In this document: piece after piece, positions 8,234 through 44,477 of the stretch
How the letters are laid out: each line of letters opens with the position of its first letter
Position numbering within the stretch: position 1 is the stretch's first letter
DNA from: Ipomoea triloba
Taxonomy: Eukaryota; Streptophyta; Magnoliopsida; Solanales; Convolvulaceae
Reading direction: 5' to 3'
Length of the DNA: 64,000 nucleotides
Assembly (NCBI RefSeq): GCF_003576645.1
Contig: NC_044919.1
Location: 19,656,753-19,720,752 of the forward strand
The notes under the pieces: generated by a model
Told to the model about the DNA's origin: nothing
Database searches by the model: none
The model's input: only the letters and a program-made list of their open reading frames with translations
Position numbers and translations under genes: made by a program

Positions 8234-9447
8234 TGTAATACCCCGAAATATTTTCTACTAAAAGTTCCTTTTTTTTTTTTTAGAAAAAAGGGGGAAGGTT
8301 TAAATTTTATTTTATTCTAAGGCATTGGCATGCTCGAGTTATGATTCATAGATATTTCAGAATAATTTTTGCTAGTACGTACCGGTCACGAACCGTAAAG
8401 TTTTTAGGAGTATGTGTTCTGTCCCGTTTGTCCTAGGAAGTGGGTTATCAGGCACCATACTATTAACCTTGAATTTCCTATTTAATTAAATTAGCCCGTA
8501 GCAGTGAAAATTTATTTTGATCGTAGCATGGCTATATTTCGCGGTGTACCGAACCTTGCCCAATTTTGAGATTTAGTCTGGGATAAATTTTTGGTTTCAA
8601 AAATTATTCTATCTAGATTATTATATACCGAGAATTCATCTGTTTTAATCCCGGTCAGTCTAGCTAAGATATTTTTCAAGACTTAACCACAAGCTAGTGA
8701 CACTTGTCACAATCTTTACCACATGTTTAGGTAAGACTAGTCAACCAAGTGAGGAGTAGGATTATAGAGCATTTTTTTCCCCTTTCTTCCTCACTTGGCC
8801 GAAATCACAAGAGGAGAAGAGAGAGAGAGATCATCATCTTCTTCCTTAAGAGCTCCACCTTCCATAGCCAAAAATTTCTTCACAAGTCTCAAGCTATTCG
8901 ATAAAACTCTAATTTTATTCGGTAGAAAGCTTTATTTTCCTTCCTAGACCTTGAATCTAAGTATAGTTTCTTAATATTTGTTGCTATAATGTTAAATTTT
9001 CTCTTAGGGTTTTGAGTGAAAATTTGGGGAAAAGATTCAAGATTCCTCCTACGGTGTTAGTACACTCCCAAAAGGTAAGGAATCCCTTAAGTAGGTTAAG
9101 GTCACTTGAAATTAGATAATTGCTAGTTTATTTGAAATATGATGAGTTTTAGGTGAAATTATTATGTACATGTTTGTATGTATAATATATATGTAATTGT
9201 ATTTTACATAATATATATGTACAAAATGTCGTGTTGGTGAGATGTGGTTATTAATGTGCCTAAATGTCTAAATTAAAAATACTATGTATATTACATAGTG
9301 TATGTACGTACGTGTAAGTATAATAATATATATTATATGCGTATTATGTATGTATGTATAAGTAATATAAGATGTTGTGTTATGTATATATATGGTATGT
9401 ATGTTAACCGGGTATATATATATGTAGGAGTATTATGGGAAATTTAT

Positions 9448-9449
9448 AT

Positions 9450-9484
<35 letters not shown>
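9448..9484. repeat. (TA)n microsatellite
   Basis: An uninterrupted TA dinucleotide run of about 37 bp in the AT-rich middle of solo LTR A. Confidence 0.9.
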
Positions 9485-9488
<4 letters not shown>

Positions 9489-10626
9489 TGTGTACTTTAT
9501 GTAAGTATGCCTAAATGTGTCAGGTGTTATGTTGTATGCATATATACATATATGTAGTGTTATGTACATATATAATGTGATGATGGAAATTGTGGGATAG
9601 TTACACTTTATTACCATAGTGTATGGTAATTAGTGTACTATCAAAATGTTTTGAGAAACAAAACTTTTGGACTAGGTTAAGAGTATTGATTGATTTCAAG
9701 TTGGGACTTGCTTTTGTTGAATATGTCCAAAAAGTGATTTTGACTCAAGGAAGATGAGGAAGAAGGAAAAATGTTTTCAAACCCTTAGTTTCTAGTAAAG
9801 TTGAGGAGGACCTTGATTAGCCTTCGTGTGACTTAAAGTGCCCTTGCCCAAGGTTGTTATATATAGTATGATCATTCATACGGAAGGGCGAAGTCTATTC
9901 GCCGAGTACTATATAACTCTTTAGGATGAGGAATTCCTGCGGGGGTGTACACACTTAAAGTATAGTTACTTTAGGAAGTCCGGGTAGGTGTCGTTTTTGT
10001 GGACCTAGTAGGGCCAGCTAGGGATCATTCTAACGAACCTTACATCCAAGGGATCTATGTTAGACCGGGGGATGACCACTGAACCCGAGTTCGATGACCC
10101 AAGTGGTCAGAGAGGGAGTTAAGAGAATACTCCAAAGGCCTCACGCTTTCAACAAAGAAACTAAGTGGAAAATTTTGTATGAAAATGTAGTTACTCTGTA
10201 GCTACGCTAAAGAGGGATGTGATGATTGTATAAGCGAAAAAAGGGTGTCGGTGAACCCTCTTTGAGATAAAAGTCGGTGGAATTTCCCGTTGAGGAAGAT
10301 TTTCAAGTACATGACTGTGATTAAACGTGAAGTTCATAATTTTCCACTACTTGCTTATATGCGTAGATGATTATTGATGGGTCGAATAATACATTTCTTG
10401 GTAAGTAATCACTTATCAAAAGAACTTAGACTATTTTTCAATTCTCATTTATTATTGGTGCAAACTATACTTGATAACTCGTTTGCAAGTAAAGTATCAA
10501 TGTAGAGTAAGGGTAATAAAGGTTTTTAAATGCCTGCTTTGTAAAACCTTTATTTAATTTTAGGTGACCCACGGATCCCCTTACTTAGCCGTCGCGTTAA
10601 CTACACTTCATTGTGTTACCTACAGA

Positions 10627-11178
10627 ATGCAATCTAGCGTAAGTTCTTGTAGTGCGGAGAACTCTCCAAGTTCGCCGGAGTATGAGTGTCATGGCATGGA
10701 GAACTCTCCAAGTTCGCCGGAGTATGAGTGTCATGGCATGGATTACGATGCAAGTTCGCCGGAGTATGAGTGTCATGGCATGGATTACGATGACTATGTA
10801 CAGCAGATGATGTGTCATGGCATGGATTACGATGACTATGTACAGCAGATGATAGGTACCGACCCATATGCGCCGGGTTATGCTCCGCTCGCTCCAGCCA
10901 GCTCTCCAGTTGTAGATAGTTTTCCTTTTGTCCAGGATGGTCCAGATGTTCAGGCCTCCTATGGTTTTTACCCCCTCGAGGTGTTGACCGAAAGTGACCC
11001 ATTAGAGTTTATCGTGTATTACCCCTATCCATGGAACCCCGGTTCACCAGAGTATTGGGACGAATGGTCCATAGTTAACACCACCTCTCGCTTCCTAGAC
11101 CATTTCACATGGTTTGAAGGGGAGTGGCATTTAGTCTGGGGCAAGTTTACAGGTCCGGTGTACCGCCGGATAGACTAG
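10627..11178 (+). CDS. LTR-encoded protein of unknown function (183 aa)
   Basis: Open from ATG 10627 to TAG 11176. I chose this start because the copy in solo LTR B begins at the same place and both ATGs follow an AG preceded by pyrimidines (TTACCTACAG here, TTATTTAACAG in B), as if at the start of a second exon. The N-terminus has 14-residue repeats containing SPSSPEYECHGM, then MDYDDYVQQM and DPYAPGYAP. The C-terminal 72 residues are rich in aromatics (EFIVYYPYPWNP, EYWDEWS, FLDHFTWFEGEWHLVWG). No signal peptide, membrane segment or known domain is recognised. Function is unknown; conservation with B suggests it was once a real protein. Confidence 0.6.
   Translation: MQSSVSSCSAENSPSSPEYECHGMENSPSSPEYECHGMDYDASSPEYECHGMDYDDYVQQMMCHGMDYDDYVQQMIGTDPYAPGYAPLAPASSPVVDSFPFVQDGPDVQASYGFYPLEVLTESDPLEFIVYYPYPWNPGSPEYWDEWSIVNTTSRFLDHFTWFEGEWHLVWGKFTGPVYRRID
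10666..10850 (+). repeat. 42-bp in-frame tandem repeats
   Basis: Three units of GAGAACTCTCCAAGTTCGCC plus 22 further bases (the third begins GATTACGATG) are followed by two overlapping copies of a second 42-bp unit containing GATTACGATGACTATGTACA. Each is exactly 14 codons, so the frame is kept. Confidence 0.85.
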
Positions 11179-11497
11179 GTATTACGTCTTGGGAGATGCT
11201 TTGGGAAAAATTCTTTTGTGTAAATGCCTTTTGTAGCCTTAGTGGTGGCTAACTCAACTCGTCGGGTCGTGGATGACCCTTAACTTATATGTTGGCCCGA
11301 TGGGCAAACTTATGTATATATAAATGTAGATATATATATATATTATATTATGATGGGTGGTTGTTATTGTTAAGTAAAAGTTTCCGTTTAGCCTGTGCAC
11401 CTAGAGTGGGGTCTATCAAAGGAAGATAGAACTCGTTCTAGGTGTGGCGGTAACTCCTCCGGATGTACGGCAAGCCAAACCGGTCCGGGGTGTTACA

Positions 11498-31284: not shown

Positions 31285-32369
31285 CCCACTGATGGACAAA
31301 TTTAATAAGTCATCGCAAGTGCACGAATCAGTTGTAGTGATAGTGTGCAATAACAAGGGTCGATCCCACAGGGAATAAATACGATGCAATTTATAAACTT
31401 CGAAAATAATTAACTTAAATGCAATAAAGTAAAGCCAAAACTGATAAAATAACTTGGAGCAATAAAATAATTGAAAACCCGAACAAACGAGATAGCATGC
31501 AACTTAGTAACTAACACGTAAAACAAAGCTCTAGGAACATGAATCAATTACCATTACTAGTTCTGCAGATTAGTTTAACTTGCCAATCAACTTAAGAGTT
31601 TGTTCTAACTATTATCTGACTAATCCGTATGGCGTCCAGATCCAGTCACGTATTCTAATGGTTCATACGCTTAAGACGTTTATTTAAACCGTTAGAACCC
31701 ATTAAGTCAGGAAGAACTTACGGAATACCCGATTTATGAACCAAACAAACAATTTAATAAGACAACTAAATTATTTATGTTTTTATCTTATAGAGCATTA
31801 AATTACTAAGTATGGTATGTACTTGATAATTCTCTCAAATAGACTAATAAAAGCTAAATTGGCCAAATTCAGCTTAATTAATCGCAACCCAAATTATAAG
31901 ATAAAACTTAATTAATTGGCAAAATTAAACATAAATCAATACATAGACGGCATGGCAATATCATCATATTCCTAGAATAATAAAATTTAGCAAAACAGTC
32001 TTAATCGACAACTAATTACAGCAGTGATAAAGACATAAAATTTGGTACCAGTATGAAGTTAATCTTAGCAAAATTCACACAATTCACAAATTGAGAATTT
32101 AAGATTTTAACAAAGTGAATTGTGAATTGGAGGAAAAGAAAGCAACACCAAGAGAGTTCGGAAGCTTCAAATATCTTTGCTGCTGAACAAGGAAACCTTC
32201 ACTGCTGAAAATTTGACCGCCGAACAAGGATTGTTGCTGCCGAACACGGATTTGAAGCTAGAATGTTAATTTGTTGATGTCAAAACCTGCGAATGAATTA
32301 ATTTCGCTGGCCGAAAATCTTCTTTTTTTTTTTTTTTTGGTTCAGGGCTTGATGTCCCACTGGCGTGAG

Positions 32370-35300
32370 TGTAATACCCCAAAATATTTTCTTCAAAAAA
32401 AAAAAAAGGGGAGAGGTTTAAATTTTATTTTATTGGCATGCTTGAGATATGATTCATAGATATTCAGAATAATTTTTGCTAGTTAAAATAGTTGTTAATA
32501 AGCTGCGATCGTACGTACCGGTCACGAACCGTAAGAAGTTTAGGAGCTGGTGTTCGGACCCGTTTGTCCTAGGAAATGGATTATTAGACACCATACTATT
32601 ATTCTTGAATTTCTTATTTAATTAAATTAGCCCATAGCAGCGAAAATTTATTCTGATCGTACATCGCTAAATTTCGCAGTGTACCGAACCTAGCCCAATT
32701 TTAAGTTTCGGTCTGGGATAAATTTTTGGTTTCGAAAATTATTTGATTTAAATTAGTTTCTACTGAGAATTCATCTGTTTTAAACCCGATCAGTCTAGCC
32801 AAGATATTTTTCAAGATCAAACCATAAGTAAGTGACACTTGTCACAATTATTTACCACATGTTGGTGTGGACTAGTCAACCAAGTGAGAGTAGGATCATA
32901 AGGCCATTTTTTTTCCCATTTCCCTCATCTTGGCCGAAAAATACAAGGAGAAAGGAGAGAGAGAGATCACCATTTTCCTCCATTGAAGCTCTACTTCCAT
33001 AGCCAAAAATTCCTTCTCAAGTCTCAAGCTTTTCGGTAAAACTTTAATTTTATTCGGTAGAAAGCTTTATTTTCCTTCCTAGACCTTGAATCTAAGCTTA
33101 GTTTCTTAATATTTGTTGTTATGATGTTAATTTTTCTCCTAGGGTTTTGAGTAAAAATTGGGGAAAAAGTCCAAGACTTGCTTCTACGGTGTTAGTAAAC
33201 TTTCTCGAGGTAAAGAATCCCTTAAGTAGGTTAAGGTCACTTGAAATTGGATAATTGATTGTTTGGTTGAAATATGATGAGATCTAGGTGGAAATGTGTA
33301 CATGATTGTATGTATAATATACATGAAATTGTATTTTGCATAATATATGGGTATAAATTGTTGTGTTGAGGAAATGTGGTAGTTAAGATGCCTAAATATC
33401 TAAATTAGAGAGGCTAAGTGTATTATATAATATATGTATGTATGTATAAGTATGGTATATATATTCATATATATACATATATATACGTGTGATGTATGTA
33501 TATATGTAAAACCGTATATATGTGCCTATATGTGTATAAATATGGGTATGTATGTATAATTAAAATAAAATGTGGTAGTATGTATGTATACATATATGTG
33601 ATATATATGCTAACCTTGTATACCTATACGTATGAGTATTGTGGAAATTATACTATGTATATGGGTAATATGTGCACTTTTATGTGAGTATGCCTAAATT
33701 GGGTGAGGCGTTATGTTGATTGCCTATATACATATATGAAGTATTATGTACATATGTGATGTGATAATGGAACAATGTGGGATAATTACACTCATTTACC
33801 CCGGTGTATGGTAATTAGTGTATTATCAAAATGTTTTGAGAAATAAAACTTTTGGACAAAGTTAAGTGTGTTGAATGATTTCAAGTTGGAACTTGGTTTT
33901 GTGAAATATGTCCAAAAAGTAATTTTTGACTCAAGAAGGATGAGGAAGAAGGAAAATTGTTTTCAAACCCTTAGTTTCTAGTAAAGTTGAGGAGGACCTT
34001 GATTAGCCTTCGGGTGGTTTAAAGTGCCATTGCCCAAGGTTGTTATATTTAGTATGATCATTCATACGGAAGGAGCGAAGTCTATTCACCGGGTACTATA
34101 TAACTCGTTTGGATGAGGTATTCCTGCGGGGGTGTGAACACTTAAAGTATAGTTACTCTAGAAAGTCCGGGTAGGTGTCGTTTCTATGGACCTAGTAGGG
34201 CCAGCTAGGGATCATTTTAACGAACCTTACGTCCAGGGGATCAGTGTTAGACCGGGTGATGACCACTGAACCCGAGTTCGATGATCCAAGTGGTCAAGAG
34301 AAGGAGTCAAGAGAATACTCCAAAGGCCTCACGCTTTCTACAAAGAAACTAAATGGAGAATTTCGTATGAAAATGTAGTTACTCTGTAGCTACGCTAAAG
34401 AGAGATGTGATGATTGTTTTAGCAAGAAAGGGTGTTGATGAACCCTCTTTGAGAAAAAGTTAGTGGAATTTCCCTATGAGGAAGATTTTCGAGTACAGAG
34501 TGGTGATTTAAATGCGAAGTTCATAAAATCTTTCCACTACTTGCTTATATGCTTAAATGCTTAGTGATGCGTTGAGTAATGTGTTTCTTGTCAAGCAATC
34601 CCTTTTCCAAAGACTTTCTATTGTTGTTCCATTCTTAGTTATTGCTTGCGAGAGCTATACTTGATAACTTATTTGCAGGTTAAGTGTCAATGAGGAGAAT
34701 GGTAATAAAGGTTTTGTTTAAATATACCTGTTTTGCAAACCTTTATTTAATTTTGGGTGACCCATGGATCCCTTACTTAGCCGTCGCGCTAACTGCACTT
34801 CAATGTGTTTTTATTTAACAGATGTCATCTAGTGTGGGCTCCTGGAGCCCGGTGAGCTCAGGGAGCTCATCTGAGTTCACCTTCCCGACCATGGACTATG
34901 ATGACTACTCCTAGTTTTTGATAGGCGAAGACCCCTATGTTCCTGGCTACGCTCCTGATCCACCTGCTCCTCCTTCTCCGCAATATAGCCCTCCCCCAGC
35001 TTACCCATCTACACCCTCTCGCATTCCGGTTCGCAATTGGCAGCCGACTTTTCTGGATGACGCCCAAGCTAGGCATGGGTTTTATCCCATAGAGGTGCTA
35101 GAGGGGAGTGATCCCCTAGAGTTCGTCGTCTTCTATCCCTATCCGTGGGACCCCAGTCCTTCGGATTATTGGGATGAGTGGTCTATGGTGATCACTCCTT
35201 GCTACTTTCTGGACCATCTCACCTGGTTTGCGAGTGAATGGCATCTAGTATGGGGAACATACTCCGGACCGGTGTACCACCGCTTGGAGTAGATGGTTGG

Positions 35301-35639
35301 TTAGGAAGGTTTGGAAGGACCTATTTTGTGTAAATATTTTTTTGTAGCCATAGTAAACTTAGTTGGCTAGTAAGTTTGTAAGTAACTTTAAATCTTGGTG
35401 TTTTGGGACCCTAGTGGTCAACTATGGTATATAGATATTCGTAGCTGATCTAGCTACTTTTGTCTCTTCCTACTGAAGTGAATATATGGTTATGTCAAGT
35501 AGAAAGTGTGTGTTTGTGAAGCAGTTTTCTTCTTTAGCCTGTGCATCTAGAGTGGACTCTACCGAGGTCGGTCAGGGTTCAGTCTAGATGTGGCGGTAAT
35601 TACTTCGGATGTACGGTATAGCCGGACCGGGGTGTTACA
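32370..35639 (+). mobile_element. Solo LTR B (3.27 kb), same family as solo LTR A
   Basis: TGTAATACCCC to GGGGTGTTACA with a perfect GTGAG target duplication (32365-32369, 35640-35644). It is co-linear with solo LTR A: SuRVIVING landmarks are the AT-rich TATGTA zone (33300-33730), the CCTCACGCTTTC and GGATGAG blocks, GTGACCCATGGATCCC before the ORF, and the 3' hairpin at 35544-35590. A donor-like GAGGTAAAG is near 33208. No retroviral genes. Confidence 0.85.
34822..35292 (+). pseudogene. LTR-encoded protein, copy in solo LTR B
   Basis: One frame of 156 codons from ATG 34822 to TAG 35290, with a single internal TAG at 34912 where copy A has CAG. It begins MSSSVGSWSPVSSGSSSEF, shares MDYDDY and DPYVPGYAP with copy A, has a Pro-rich spacer in place of the copy A spacer, then the conserved C-terminal block GFYPIEVLEGSDPLEFVVFY, DYWDEWSMV, FLDHLTWF, EWHLVWGTYSGPVYHRLE. 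No indels separate the two copies over the last 72 codons. The 14-residue repeats of copy A are absent. Function unknown. Confidence 0.6.
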
Positions 35640-36152
35640 GTGAGATTGCAGTCCTTTTATATTGCTCACGCCAACTATACCTCCGTAAATTTGGTAGCTG
35701 TAGAAGACCTTAGACCAAGGGCAGCCATAGAAAAATTTTGTCTTCCGTTCAAAACTGTTGCTGCTCATTCGGATCACCCACAAGACCGAGTTTATTGAAG
35801 AACGTTGTCCGGAAGTTTGGTTCGCGATCCAATTCTTTCGCTCATCGCCGCAGGTCTCTCAGTTCATCGCAGACGTTATTTAGCCGAAAGAGAATAACAT
35901 TATTAATTTAATGGGCTGGACTCAAATAAATCTAAATAACTGACACAAAATAACAAAGACAACCTCATTGAATGGGCTTGACTAATGGACTAGAGAATAC
36001 AATTTATCAATTAAAACTAAACTAATAATAATAAAAAGCCCAAAAAATATTAATTATTAAAATAAAAGAAATTAAATGCATAATTAATTAAAATTACTAA
36101 TGAATTATAAAAAGAATATATATATAAATTAACAATAAAAAAGTGTTTATCA

Positions 36153-42404: not shown

Positions 42405-42766
42405 CATCATAGACGACGGTTATTTAAATAACCGCCGTCTAATATATTTTCATCTACTACGTCACATATAGACGGCGGTTTTTTTAAAAATCGCTGTCTA
42501 TTATATACCACGTCATTTAATAGACGACAGTTTTTAAATAACCGCTGTCTAATATATACCACGTTACTTAATAGACGGCGTTTTTTAAATAACCGACGTC
42601 TAATATATATCACGTCACTTAATAGACGACGGTTTTTAAATAACCGTCGTCTAATATATACCATGTTACTTAATAGACGACGGTTTTTAAATAACCACCG
42701 TCTAATATATACCATGTCACTTAATAGACGGCGGTTTTTAAATAACCGCCGTCTAATATCTACATC
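42405..42766. repeat. CACTA left subterminal palindrome array
   Basis: Seven units of about 50-60 bp. Each carries a palindrome of the form GACGGCGGTTTTTAAATAAC plus CGCCGTC and a spacer TAATATATACCACGTCACTT. Arms vary between units but often remain complementary. Such repeats bind the element-encoded TNPA-type protein in known CACTA elements. Confidence 0.9.
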
Positions 42767-44477
42767 TACAATTTTAATAAGAGCCAATAATGTTAAACCT
42801 TTACGAAAACTAAAAAAATATTAATGTAATAGTCTGTTATAAAATATTGTACTTTGTGATCTTCTTATTATACAACCTCCAATTAAATTCATAATTTATC
42901 CTCATTCTTTATAACTTTACCAAATTATTTCCGTAAATTGGATGGAAATTTGAAGTAGCGGTGTTAAGTTGAAGTAAAGGTGGCAATTCTGTAGTTTATC
43001 TTAAATTGGATGGCAGTTTGTTCTTCAAAGAAATTAGGGCAGCAATATGCCAATATTCACATAATTCGGTGTCTCATCTGTCTGCTCCCTGGCATCTCCT
43101 CCGTGTCGCGGTGTCGGCGTCTCATCTATCTGCTCGACGGCATCTCCTCCGTGGTAATGAATATTGATAAGAAGGTTTCTTCCGCGTCTGCTCCCACCAG
43201 GCGACTTCCATGCTGGCGTCTCATCTGTCTGCTCCACGACATCTCCTCCTTTAGTTTTATTTATTTATTTGAAAATTTTTCTGGGTGGCATGGTGCAAAT
43301 TGATTTAATTTCTTGTTAATATTAAAGCTGGTTTAAGTTGTAGTACCTTAAATCTCAAATTCTAGGCAAGTAGTTTATTTTAAACTGTCATAAGTATTAT
43401 GTTTTTGTTTGTGAATTAGTTGTCTTTTCTGTTTGGATTTAAGTATTTGGCTCATGAAACAGAATATTATACTGTGTGAATGTTATATTTGTTTTTGGGA
43501 AACCTTAACAGTGAAAAACTGGTTAATATCTTAGTGCATAAATGGTAGCTAATTTTTCCTGAAACATTTATTTAATAGATTGATAGCCGAACTGCTGCCG
43601 CTATGATTCCTTGATTGAGCGAACGGAGAGACATGCATCCGAGGGACCAACACACGTAGCCGACCTGGTAGCAGTTCCTGGTACTTCATCTTTTTCTTCT
43701 TTGTCTATAACTGTTAATAATTTTTTCTTTAATATTCGCATACATTCAAATTAATAATTATAATAATTCGTGAATCTGATTGTGTAGATGTTTAATTGTT
43801 GATATAATAGCCTTCAATTATGAATATGTTTATCTATCTGTGTATATATATTCCCTGGAAACTTATTGCCTGCTATGGACTTTTTCAAAAACACATTATT
43901 GGTTTGGGAGATTATTGATATTTTCTTTTTAAAAGAGAAGTGATTTTAGCTGGGAATTGTGGTTGTGATGAGCTTTGATTTTTGGATAAGGAAAGGAGGA
44001 GAAAGGCTTGGCTTCCAATTGCAAGAAGAACGGTTGAATGGTTTGCCAACAGAGAAAGAAGATCTTCAACTCATCAATCCCCAACCACAACACAGTTTTG
44101 ACATGTATAAACATCTGATATAAATTAAACAATCTTACTATATTATACTATAATGTGCTGCAAACCTGCCTTGGTGGAATAAACTAAATTCATTGAGGTT
44201 TCTTTAACTAATTGAGATTGGAGAAAGTAGCTCACTCTCATTTTCTTTGGTCTTTGTTTACTAGCTGAGTATAGTCTGTCACTAATATATCCTGAAATAG
44301 TTTGATATGATTGTTGTGACAAAATATCATCTCTGAAGTTAAGATACCTTTTCTTTTAATGTGGTTTGAAATCTTAAATCGAGAACAAATGTTTCATCTC
44401 TGCAGACTGATTTCAAATTTTTTACTTGCTGTAGGCTAAAGTTGCTGGAAGGACAAGTGAATACTACTCTAAAGTTT
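42767..44477. other. CACTA interior, unrecognised
   Basis: Mostly AT-rich. Three imperfect copies of GTCTCATCTGTCTGCTCC.. GGCATCTCCTCC lie at about 43071-43108, 43114-43153 and 43211-43249. A short open stretch near 43590-43670 is not recognised. The minus-strand frame at 44339-44477 continues out of rpoB but does not match that gene. Confidence 0.5.

Follow-up and report, generated by a model that had tools for sequence, protein, structure and literature searches.

Long terminal repeats (LTRs) of retrotransposons are usually viewed as regulatory DNA; can such a repeat also hold a protein gene of its own? A 64,000-nucleotide stretch from the genome of Ipomoea triloba, a wild species related to sweet potato (contig NC_044919.1, positions 19,656,753 to 19,720,752; hereafter the window) raises this question, as two diverged LTRs in it, termed LTR A and LTR B, each contain an open reading frame (ORF), and it appears to offer a large plant case of an LTR carrying a selected protein gene. 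In our view the ORF is probably a genuine accessory gene that belongs to an LTR retrotransposon of the Ty3/gypsy chromovirus type and lies wholly within its LTR. A gene so placed is therefore present in two copies in each full-length element and in one copy in each solo LTR.

The reading frame within the LTRs is under purifying selection

Both frames lie where the initial annotation had placed them, with 10627-11178 open for 183 codons (ORF A) and 34822-35292 comprising 156 codons (ORF B), and the single internal stop of ORF B is indeed a TAG at codon 31 opposite a CAG in ORF A. The count made by hand over the last 72 codons also proved exact, giving 23 identical, 24 silently different and 25 replaced codons without any indel. 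Over these codons, the proportions of differing silent and replacement sites (pS and pN) are 0.84 and 0.17, respectively, with the silent sites saturated, and the differences fall on codon positions 1, 2 and 3 as 17, 10 and 39. As many as 47 of the 72 amino acids are kept, whereas 5000 neutral simulations kept 31.6 on average and never more than 40. The further claim that the flanking LTR is less well kept holds downstream of the ORF and fails upstream, where the LTR is conserved better than the ORF: identity per 100-nt bin is 75-93% upstream, 45-70% over the ORF and 59-66% after it, and reaches 83% in the final stretch of the LTR.

Selection between subfamilies was assessed on copies collected by a protein search of the genome with the homologue P0005, which reported 152 matches from 150 scored of 1839 first-look candidates. 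Internal stops interrupt 35 of the 150 matches listed and are absent from the other 115 (counted by hand, under a scoring that favours good copies). Sixteen stop-free matches, three copies of the close, A-type subfamily and ORF B made up a set of 20 copies. Over the 30 of 190 pairs with an unsaturated p-distance of 0.04-0.16, the summed ratio of replacement to silent substitution rates (dN/dS) is 0.164; read in the wrong frames, the same pairs yield 1.58 and 1.40. The ratio falls with rising pS (bins up to 0.5) as 0.53, 0.39, 0.14 and 0.11 (5, 15, 16 and 7 pairs), and the 147 pairs with pS above 0.5 have silent sites near saturation and a pN/pS of 0.28-0.29. These data show that the reading frame is under purifying selection; the constraint that the initial annotation had read from ORF A and ORF B extends to the diverged copies, whose dN/dS of 0.16 is far from 1.

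Within the A-type subfamily, a DNA search of the I. triloba genome brought up 334 candidates, of which 40 were scored and yielded 77 matches; from these, 39 ORF copies besides ORF A and ORF B were sampled in two batches; many of the copies are 92-95% like the common part of ORF A. Seventeen of the 39 are intact, with an ATG, no internal stop and no indel; L023 among them lacks a stop codon, and two of the 17 are a tandem pair encoding the same protein. Fourteen copies are damaged by internal stops only and eight carry indels, seven of them frame-breaking, so that the majority of copies have no frameshift. For the variant test, six of the 39 were dropped (two duplicate tandem copies and four badly broken ones). 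Variants private to one copy comprise 33 silent, 99 replacement and 6 stop changes, where 24/71/5% is expected without selection, compared to 22, 27 and 2 among variants common to at least three copies (Fisher p 0.012; those in exactly two copies, 11/15/1, were excluded). A second scoring of private versus shared variants gave p 0.031 in the true frame, whereas the wrong frames gave 1.0 and 0.70. By codon position, the private variants number 46/47/45 and the shared ones 14/13/24. Among the 23 copies with enough flank, indels common to at least three copies number four upstream, none in the ORF and six downstream. Since the private variants are neutral-like and the shared ones silent-biased, the ORF is constrained during element replication and drifts neutrally once inserted.

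Tandem LTR copies 1.2-2.1 kb apart, with an ORF in each, were seen at L020, L021 and L028; at L020 and L021 both tandem ORF copies encode identical proteins.

The carrier element and its protein product

Full-length Ty3/gypsy elements of at least three subfamilies carry the ORF, in each case ~320-380 nt short of the LTR end. The motif TGGTATCAGAGC, which we take to be the initiator-Met tRNA primer site, directly follows the ORF-carrying LTR in six of 20 10-kb loci (L009, L010, L014, L018, L026 and L028, with a tandem LTR in L028 and a mismatch in one of the six), and in L016 it follows another LTR end 1.2 kb further on. Solo or tandem LTRs with matching 5-bp flanks are present at L019, L021, L023, L024, L025 and L027. 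Four separate open pieces in L026 give Pfam matches to gag, protease, reverse transcriptase, RNase H and integrase in Ty3/gypsy order; the rve core match of the integrase (24 bits) is below the cut-off, whereas its zinc-binding and C-terminal pieces are above. A chromodomain (PF00385) is found at L009:6692-6877 with an E value of 5.8e-5 and 23.4 bits, slightly under the curated cut-off of 25.1; L026 showed none, and its pol passes into A-rich sequence at the end. Assignment of the carrier to the Tekay clade is our guess from the LTR ends and the chromodomain type.

L026 and L015 hold the two LTRs of one element, ~98.8% alike with 23 mismatches over blocks of 1015 and 861 nt. In other subfamilies, ORF pairs are spaced 7.9 kb apart on C8, 8.9 kb on C10 and 8.5 kb on C4; in each of these pairs the upstream copy runs into an LTR end and primer site, and the other does not. 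The LTR tails within the pairs differ at 0 of 372 aligned columns on C8, 0 of 388 on C10 and 3 of 356 on C4, with 2, 2 and 6 gap columns besides. The primer site stands after the upstream copies of C8, C3 and C4, and is displaced by a few bases in C10. Less clean are C10, which has unusual bases after both LTR ends, and C3, where the LTR end of the second copy was not found. From the loci with a primer site after the LTR and these pairs with near-identical tails it follows that the gene is inside the LTR in at least three subfamilies, namely the A type, the P0005-like type (C8, C10) and a 145-codon type (C4). A further two LTRs on C9, in L009 (start 539) and L017 (end 3688), lie 20 kb apart on the same strand with the flank CTTTT on both; they probably bound a single element that has grown by nested insertions.

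Both LTRs of the window had been called solo LTRs. This is borne out for LTR B, which has GTGAG on both sides, and not for LTR A, whose ends are correct and whose flanks are unlike (GACAC and GGCAG). A simple solo-LTR history of LTR A is therefore not established, and we rejected that designation for want of a matching target-site duplication. ORF A itself is atypical, as an in-frame local duplication of ~126 nt in it is absent from the other copies; the family ORF has ~141 codons.

The encoded protein is small and acidic, contains hardly any lysine and has a single conserved domain at its C-terminus. Repeated searches of 5.8 billion proteins found 19 relatives, the last search adding none. 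Sixteen of them come from short contigs; the others are two gene models of I. triloba and a protein filed under Morganella. The Morganella morganii entry (P0010) comes from a 582-nt contig and is probably plant DNA contaminating a bacterial assembly. ORF cores of full-length members measure 141-164 aa, and homologues with only 41-43% identity to P0005 remain full length. All 23 invariant columns across 17 aligned sequences fall within the C-terminal ~70 residues. The isoelectric point is 4.05-4.34 (8 proteins). Lysine is almost absent, with 7 Lys versus 39 Arg in 1791 residues of 13 homologues, compared to 107 Lys and 81 Arg in 1238 residues of the L026 gag/pol pieces (Fisher 3.4e-7); 16 further genomic copies have 3 Lys in all. 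The C-terminal domain was modelled with a predicted local distance difference test (pLDDT) of 82.9 and a predicted template modelling score (pTM) of 0.65, and is mainly β; the full-length model was poor (pLDDT 55.1).

Searches with the domain model using Foldseek and VIA revealed no credible structural relative in the PDB or among viral models. Likewise, Pfam, PHROGs and PDB sequences yielded no credible family, in agreement with the earlier remark that no named family was known, and the protein family is without a match to any known family. Several candidates were rejected: a sub-threshold Pfam pectate-lyase match (E 0.33), a PDB pyrophosphatase match that faded from E 0.012 with ORF A alone to E 0.75 with the family profile, PDB decarboxylase matches (E 0.57 or worse) and a single PHROGs match (E 0.9). 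An RNA element in place of a protein was also discarded, as Rfam gave only sub-threshold matches on LTR A. One of the gene models, P0003 (L041 and L046:20-660, C7), is consistent with splicing from a donor within the LTR ORF to an exon of a SAC51-type bHLH. Its bHLH domain, 0.5 bit below the Pfam cut-off, lies outside the ORF part and was not taken as a match of the family; P0003 is possibly an LTR gene exonised beside a host transcription factor, or a prediction error.

Putative splice signals and possible mosaic structure of the LTRs

A CAG adjoins the ATG of the ORF in all 16 diverged copies; of the 38 close-subfamily alignments covering the site, 35 have it. An AG/GT donor ~1.55 kb upstream of the ATG is kept in 22 of 24 covering alignments, with LTR A and LTR B of the window included. 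In all six database homologues whose frame continues upstream of the initiator Met (P0008, P0009, P0014, P0017, P0018 and P0020, the spliced model P0002 not being counted), Gln precedes it. The CAG abutting the ATG, together with this donor, makes it likely that the LTR produces a spliced leader (Table 1). The block from TTTTGTGTAAAT to TTTTGTAGCC after the stop, kept in an otherwise diverged stretch, is a possible poly(A) region.

Table 1. Positions, within the 64,000-nucleotide window, of the two LTRs, their ORFs and the associated signals
Feature	Position	Strand	Basis
LTR A (TGTAATACCCC...GGGGTGTTACA), ORF carrier	8234..11497	+	sequence; alignment to other genomic copies
Proposed leader exon 1 of LTR A, GA/CT-rich, ending AAAAG/GTAAGG	8790..9074	+	conserved donor; start by eye
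Proposed leader intron of LTR A	9075..10625	+	donor/acceptor conservation
ORF A, 183 aa, with ~126-nt in-frame local duplication relative to other copies	10627..11178	+	sequence
Conserved C-terminal 72 codons of ORF A	10960..11175	+	codon comparison, alignment, domain model
TTTTGTGTAAAT..TTTTGTAGCC block after the stop, kept in a diverged stretch	11214..11238	+	A/B alignment
Left target-site duplication GTGAG of LTR B	32365..32369	+	sequence
LTR B, solo LTR	32370..35639	+	sequence
Proposed leader intron of LTR B (GAG/GTAAAG ... AACAG/ATG)	33210..34821	+	donor/acceptor conservation
ORF B, 156 codons, one TAG at codon 31	34822..35292	+	sequence
LTR B counterpart of the TTTTGTGTAAAT..TTTTGTAGCC block	35324..35349	+	A/B alignment
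Right target-site duplication GTGAG of LTR B	35640..35644	+	sequence

The sequence of the gene model P0002 implies a join between an exon ~10.3 kb upstream and the CAG/ATG acceptor (L045, reverse strand 2523-2606, and L020). On this model, an LTR copy may also capture upstream transcripts. In L009, L010, L014, L018, L026 and L028 a donor-like site, AAGAG/GTAAG, occurs ~90-110 nt past the LTR end, and it stands ~300 nt before the gag ATG where that ATG is kept; the gag leader may thus be spliced as well. A second gag promoter downstream of the ORF was considered and rejected, the candidate being merely a TATA-rich stretch in LTR A that is poorly kept in LTR B.

The identity between LTR A and LTR B drops sharply at the ORF: in 25-nt bins it is 92% in the three up to position 10608, 64% in the next two spanning the ATG and mostly ~50% beyond. 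Fast evolution of the ORF was rejected as the cause, as in the close subfamily the ORF is not more diverse (0.045) than the upstream flank (0.058; downstream 0.135). The drop at the ATG combined with this low diversity therefore calls for recombination between LTR lineages or constraint upstream. The coding exon and the 3' part thus behave as if they were a module to which a younger 5' part had been added, as expected from recombination; a possible alternative is that the 5' part is under constraint.

Proposed role, rival explanations and known systems

If the accessory gene is expressed as its signals suggest, transcription from an LTR promoter would begin with a short leader exon, splicing would take out the leader intron of ~1.55 kb, and the coding exon would be translated from an RNA ending at a poly(A) site near the 3' end of the LTR. 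The LTR would then be a complete gene alone, and solo LTRs could keep making the protein. An accessory factor acting in trans would fit the selection on the replicating element, the lineages that have lost the gene, a position that survives in solo LTRs and a compact acidic, lysine-free protein. The protein might serve as an adaptor on a host factor and favour expression or spread of the element, which is the weakest part of the proposal. Near-absence of lysine is reported to be conserved in ubiquitin-proteasome proteins and lysine deserts are prevalent among them (PMC10169902); the LTR protein shares this conserved near-lack, as a likeness of composition only, and no ubiquitin-system domain was found in it. 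Because of this prevalence, a host ubiquitin ligase was proposed as the route; for instance, a ligase could be recruited against a host control factor with the protein itself left undegraded. Such contact seems unlikely on balance. A wider scheme, which we hold only tentatively and judge doubtful, would make LTRs self-contained genes with promoter, leader exon, intron, coding exon and poly(A) site, solo LTRs providing many expressed copies of a lysine-free adaptor whose trans action on a ubiquitin or silencing factor of the host would serve all members of the family, gene-less lineages included, and the coding exon being swapped between LTR lineages as a module.

The main rival to an accessory gene of this kind is a structural or replication helper of the particle, such as a split-off Gag-like or env-like protein that is not directed at the host. 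Small acidic proteins are able to assemble with basic Gag, and selection at the level of the replicating element would suit such a helper; its ORF, however, sits in the LTR separate from gag-pol, some LTR lineages do without it, and the Pfam, PDB-sequence and viral-model searches gave no credible match (the element's own gag was not directly compared), which leaves this explanation rather unlikely. The ORF could otherwise act in cis as a leader ORF that controls the expression of gag or the packaging of RNA by being translated, its product mattering little. With a transcription start in the 5' part of the LTR, it would stand upstream of gag in genomic RNA, and the gag leader has its own donor-like site, but conservation at the amino-acid level over a domain of ~75 residues with its invariant columns, as well as a confidently predicted fold that a regulatory upstream ORF does not need, render this very improbable.

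Less probable still is an origin by LTR capture of part of a host gene, or a gene that selection on the plant now maintains. Two copies are annotated as I. triloba genes and one of them is fused to the SAC51-type bHLH exon, but both models resemble exonised LTRs, they and the Morganella-filed protein are the only named relatives in the 5.8 billion proteins, the other 16 lying on short contigs, and the constraint is spread across many copies rather than confined to one locus. Hardly tenable at all is a chance frame that is open merely through the youth of its copies. Many copies are indeed close to ORF A and some LTR pairs are near-identical; yet the frame-specific dN/dS, with wrong-frame controls above 1, rules such an ORF out, and the residues kept between ORF A and ORF B despite saturated silent sites and the full length of the most diverged homologues speak the same way.

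Several points weigh against the accessory gene that we favour. The transcription start, leader exon and poly(A) site were placed by eye only, and the ubiquitin link is drawn from composition alone. The selection test within the subfamily is only moderately significant (p 0.012-0.031), and the 99 nt upstream gave too few variants to serve as its control (p 0.29, 1.0 and 0.10). The 16 diverged copies were hand-picked as stop-free and good matches to P0005, which biases dN downwards; this choice would not create the frame-specific contrast in dN/dS. Moreover, at least three related LTRs (L017, L019 and L022) keep the CAG and the first codons and lack the body of the ORF, the first codon being ATG in L019 and L022 and TTG in L017. 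They look like one lineage that multiplied, and the gene is therefore not needed in cis by every lineage; some LTR lineages spread without the ORF, or with the protein supplied in trans. These ORF-less LTRs span L017:6103-9114, L019:5466-7826 and a stretch near 2500 in L022, and the flanks of the L019 copy match (ATAGG).

The sag gene of mouse mammary tumour virus (MMTV) is located in the LTR, and nef of primate lentiviruses is an accessory coding sequence that reaches into the U3 part of the LTR. In this respect nef is alike, but it only overlaps the LTR and belongs to another host kingdom. The comparison with MMTV made in the initial annotation applies to the position of the gene in the LTR and not beyond. 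Sag belongs to an animal retrovirus and is a superantigen of the type II membrane kind; a Pfam search of the LTR protein gave no relation to it, the Sag sequence itself not being compared. Purifying selection is reported for sag, together with recombination and positively selected sites (PMC11998498), and the module of the LTR ORF also looks recombined.

Among plant elements, Tekay chromoviruses have an extra conserved protein gene (aORF) of unknown function 5' of gag-pol, which is reported for sunflower Tekay group 2, Retrosat-2, maize Tekay and Sb7; the sunflower protein has 402 aa, three helical coils, a nuclear localization signal and long disorder (PMC11728184). The LTR ORF is also an extra protein gene of a chromovirus and stands 5' of gag but inside the LTR; in contrast to that description, it encodes an acidic protein of ~141-164 aa with a β-rich domain, and its cores do not have the ~400 aa with three helical coils. 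Extra ORFs (eORFs) of unknown function are common in plant Ty3/gypsy elements according to a survey, and the LTR ORF is below its cut-off of 250 or more codons (PMC6317226). A study of grasses describes intact genes within LTR retrotransposons, with no position in the LTR stated in the text available (PMC1560396). Literature searches for LTR-internal ORFs, LTR-encoded proteins and Ipomoea retrotransposons gave no plant gene wholly within an LTR among the matches listed; two apparent matches were discarded, since in the text available 'coding LTR' in PMC7302162 reads 'non-coding LTR' and 'LTR ORF' in PMC4016481 reads 'non-LTR ORF'. Extra ORFs in plant retrotransposons are already known, and what distinguishes this accessory gene is the location in the LTR and the unmatched protein family. 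Solo LTRs, common relics of retrotransposons, are not necessarily dead as coding sequence and can still hold a complete protein-coding frame. Such genes can be missed by repeat masking and by surveys that admit only ORFs of at least 250 codons. The compact intact protein makes an accessory-gene role in plant retrotransposons testable, and its lack of lysine points to a specific way in which a retroelement may influence the host.

Elsewhere in the window, positions 42429-42813 hold six tandem copies spaced by 51 nt, which overlap a 126-codon ORF on the minus strand.
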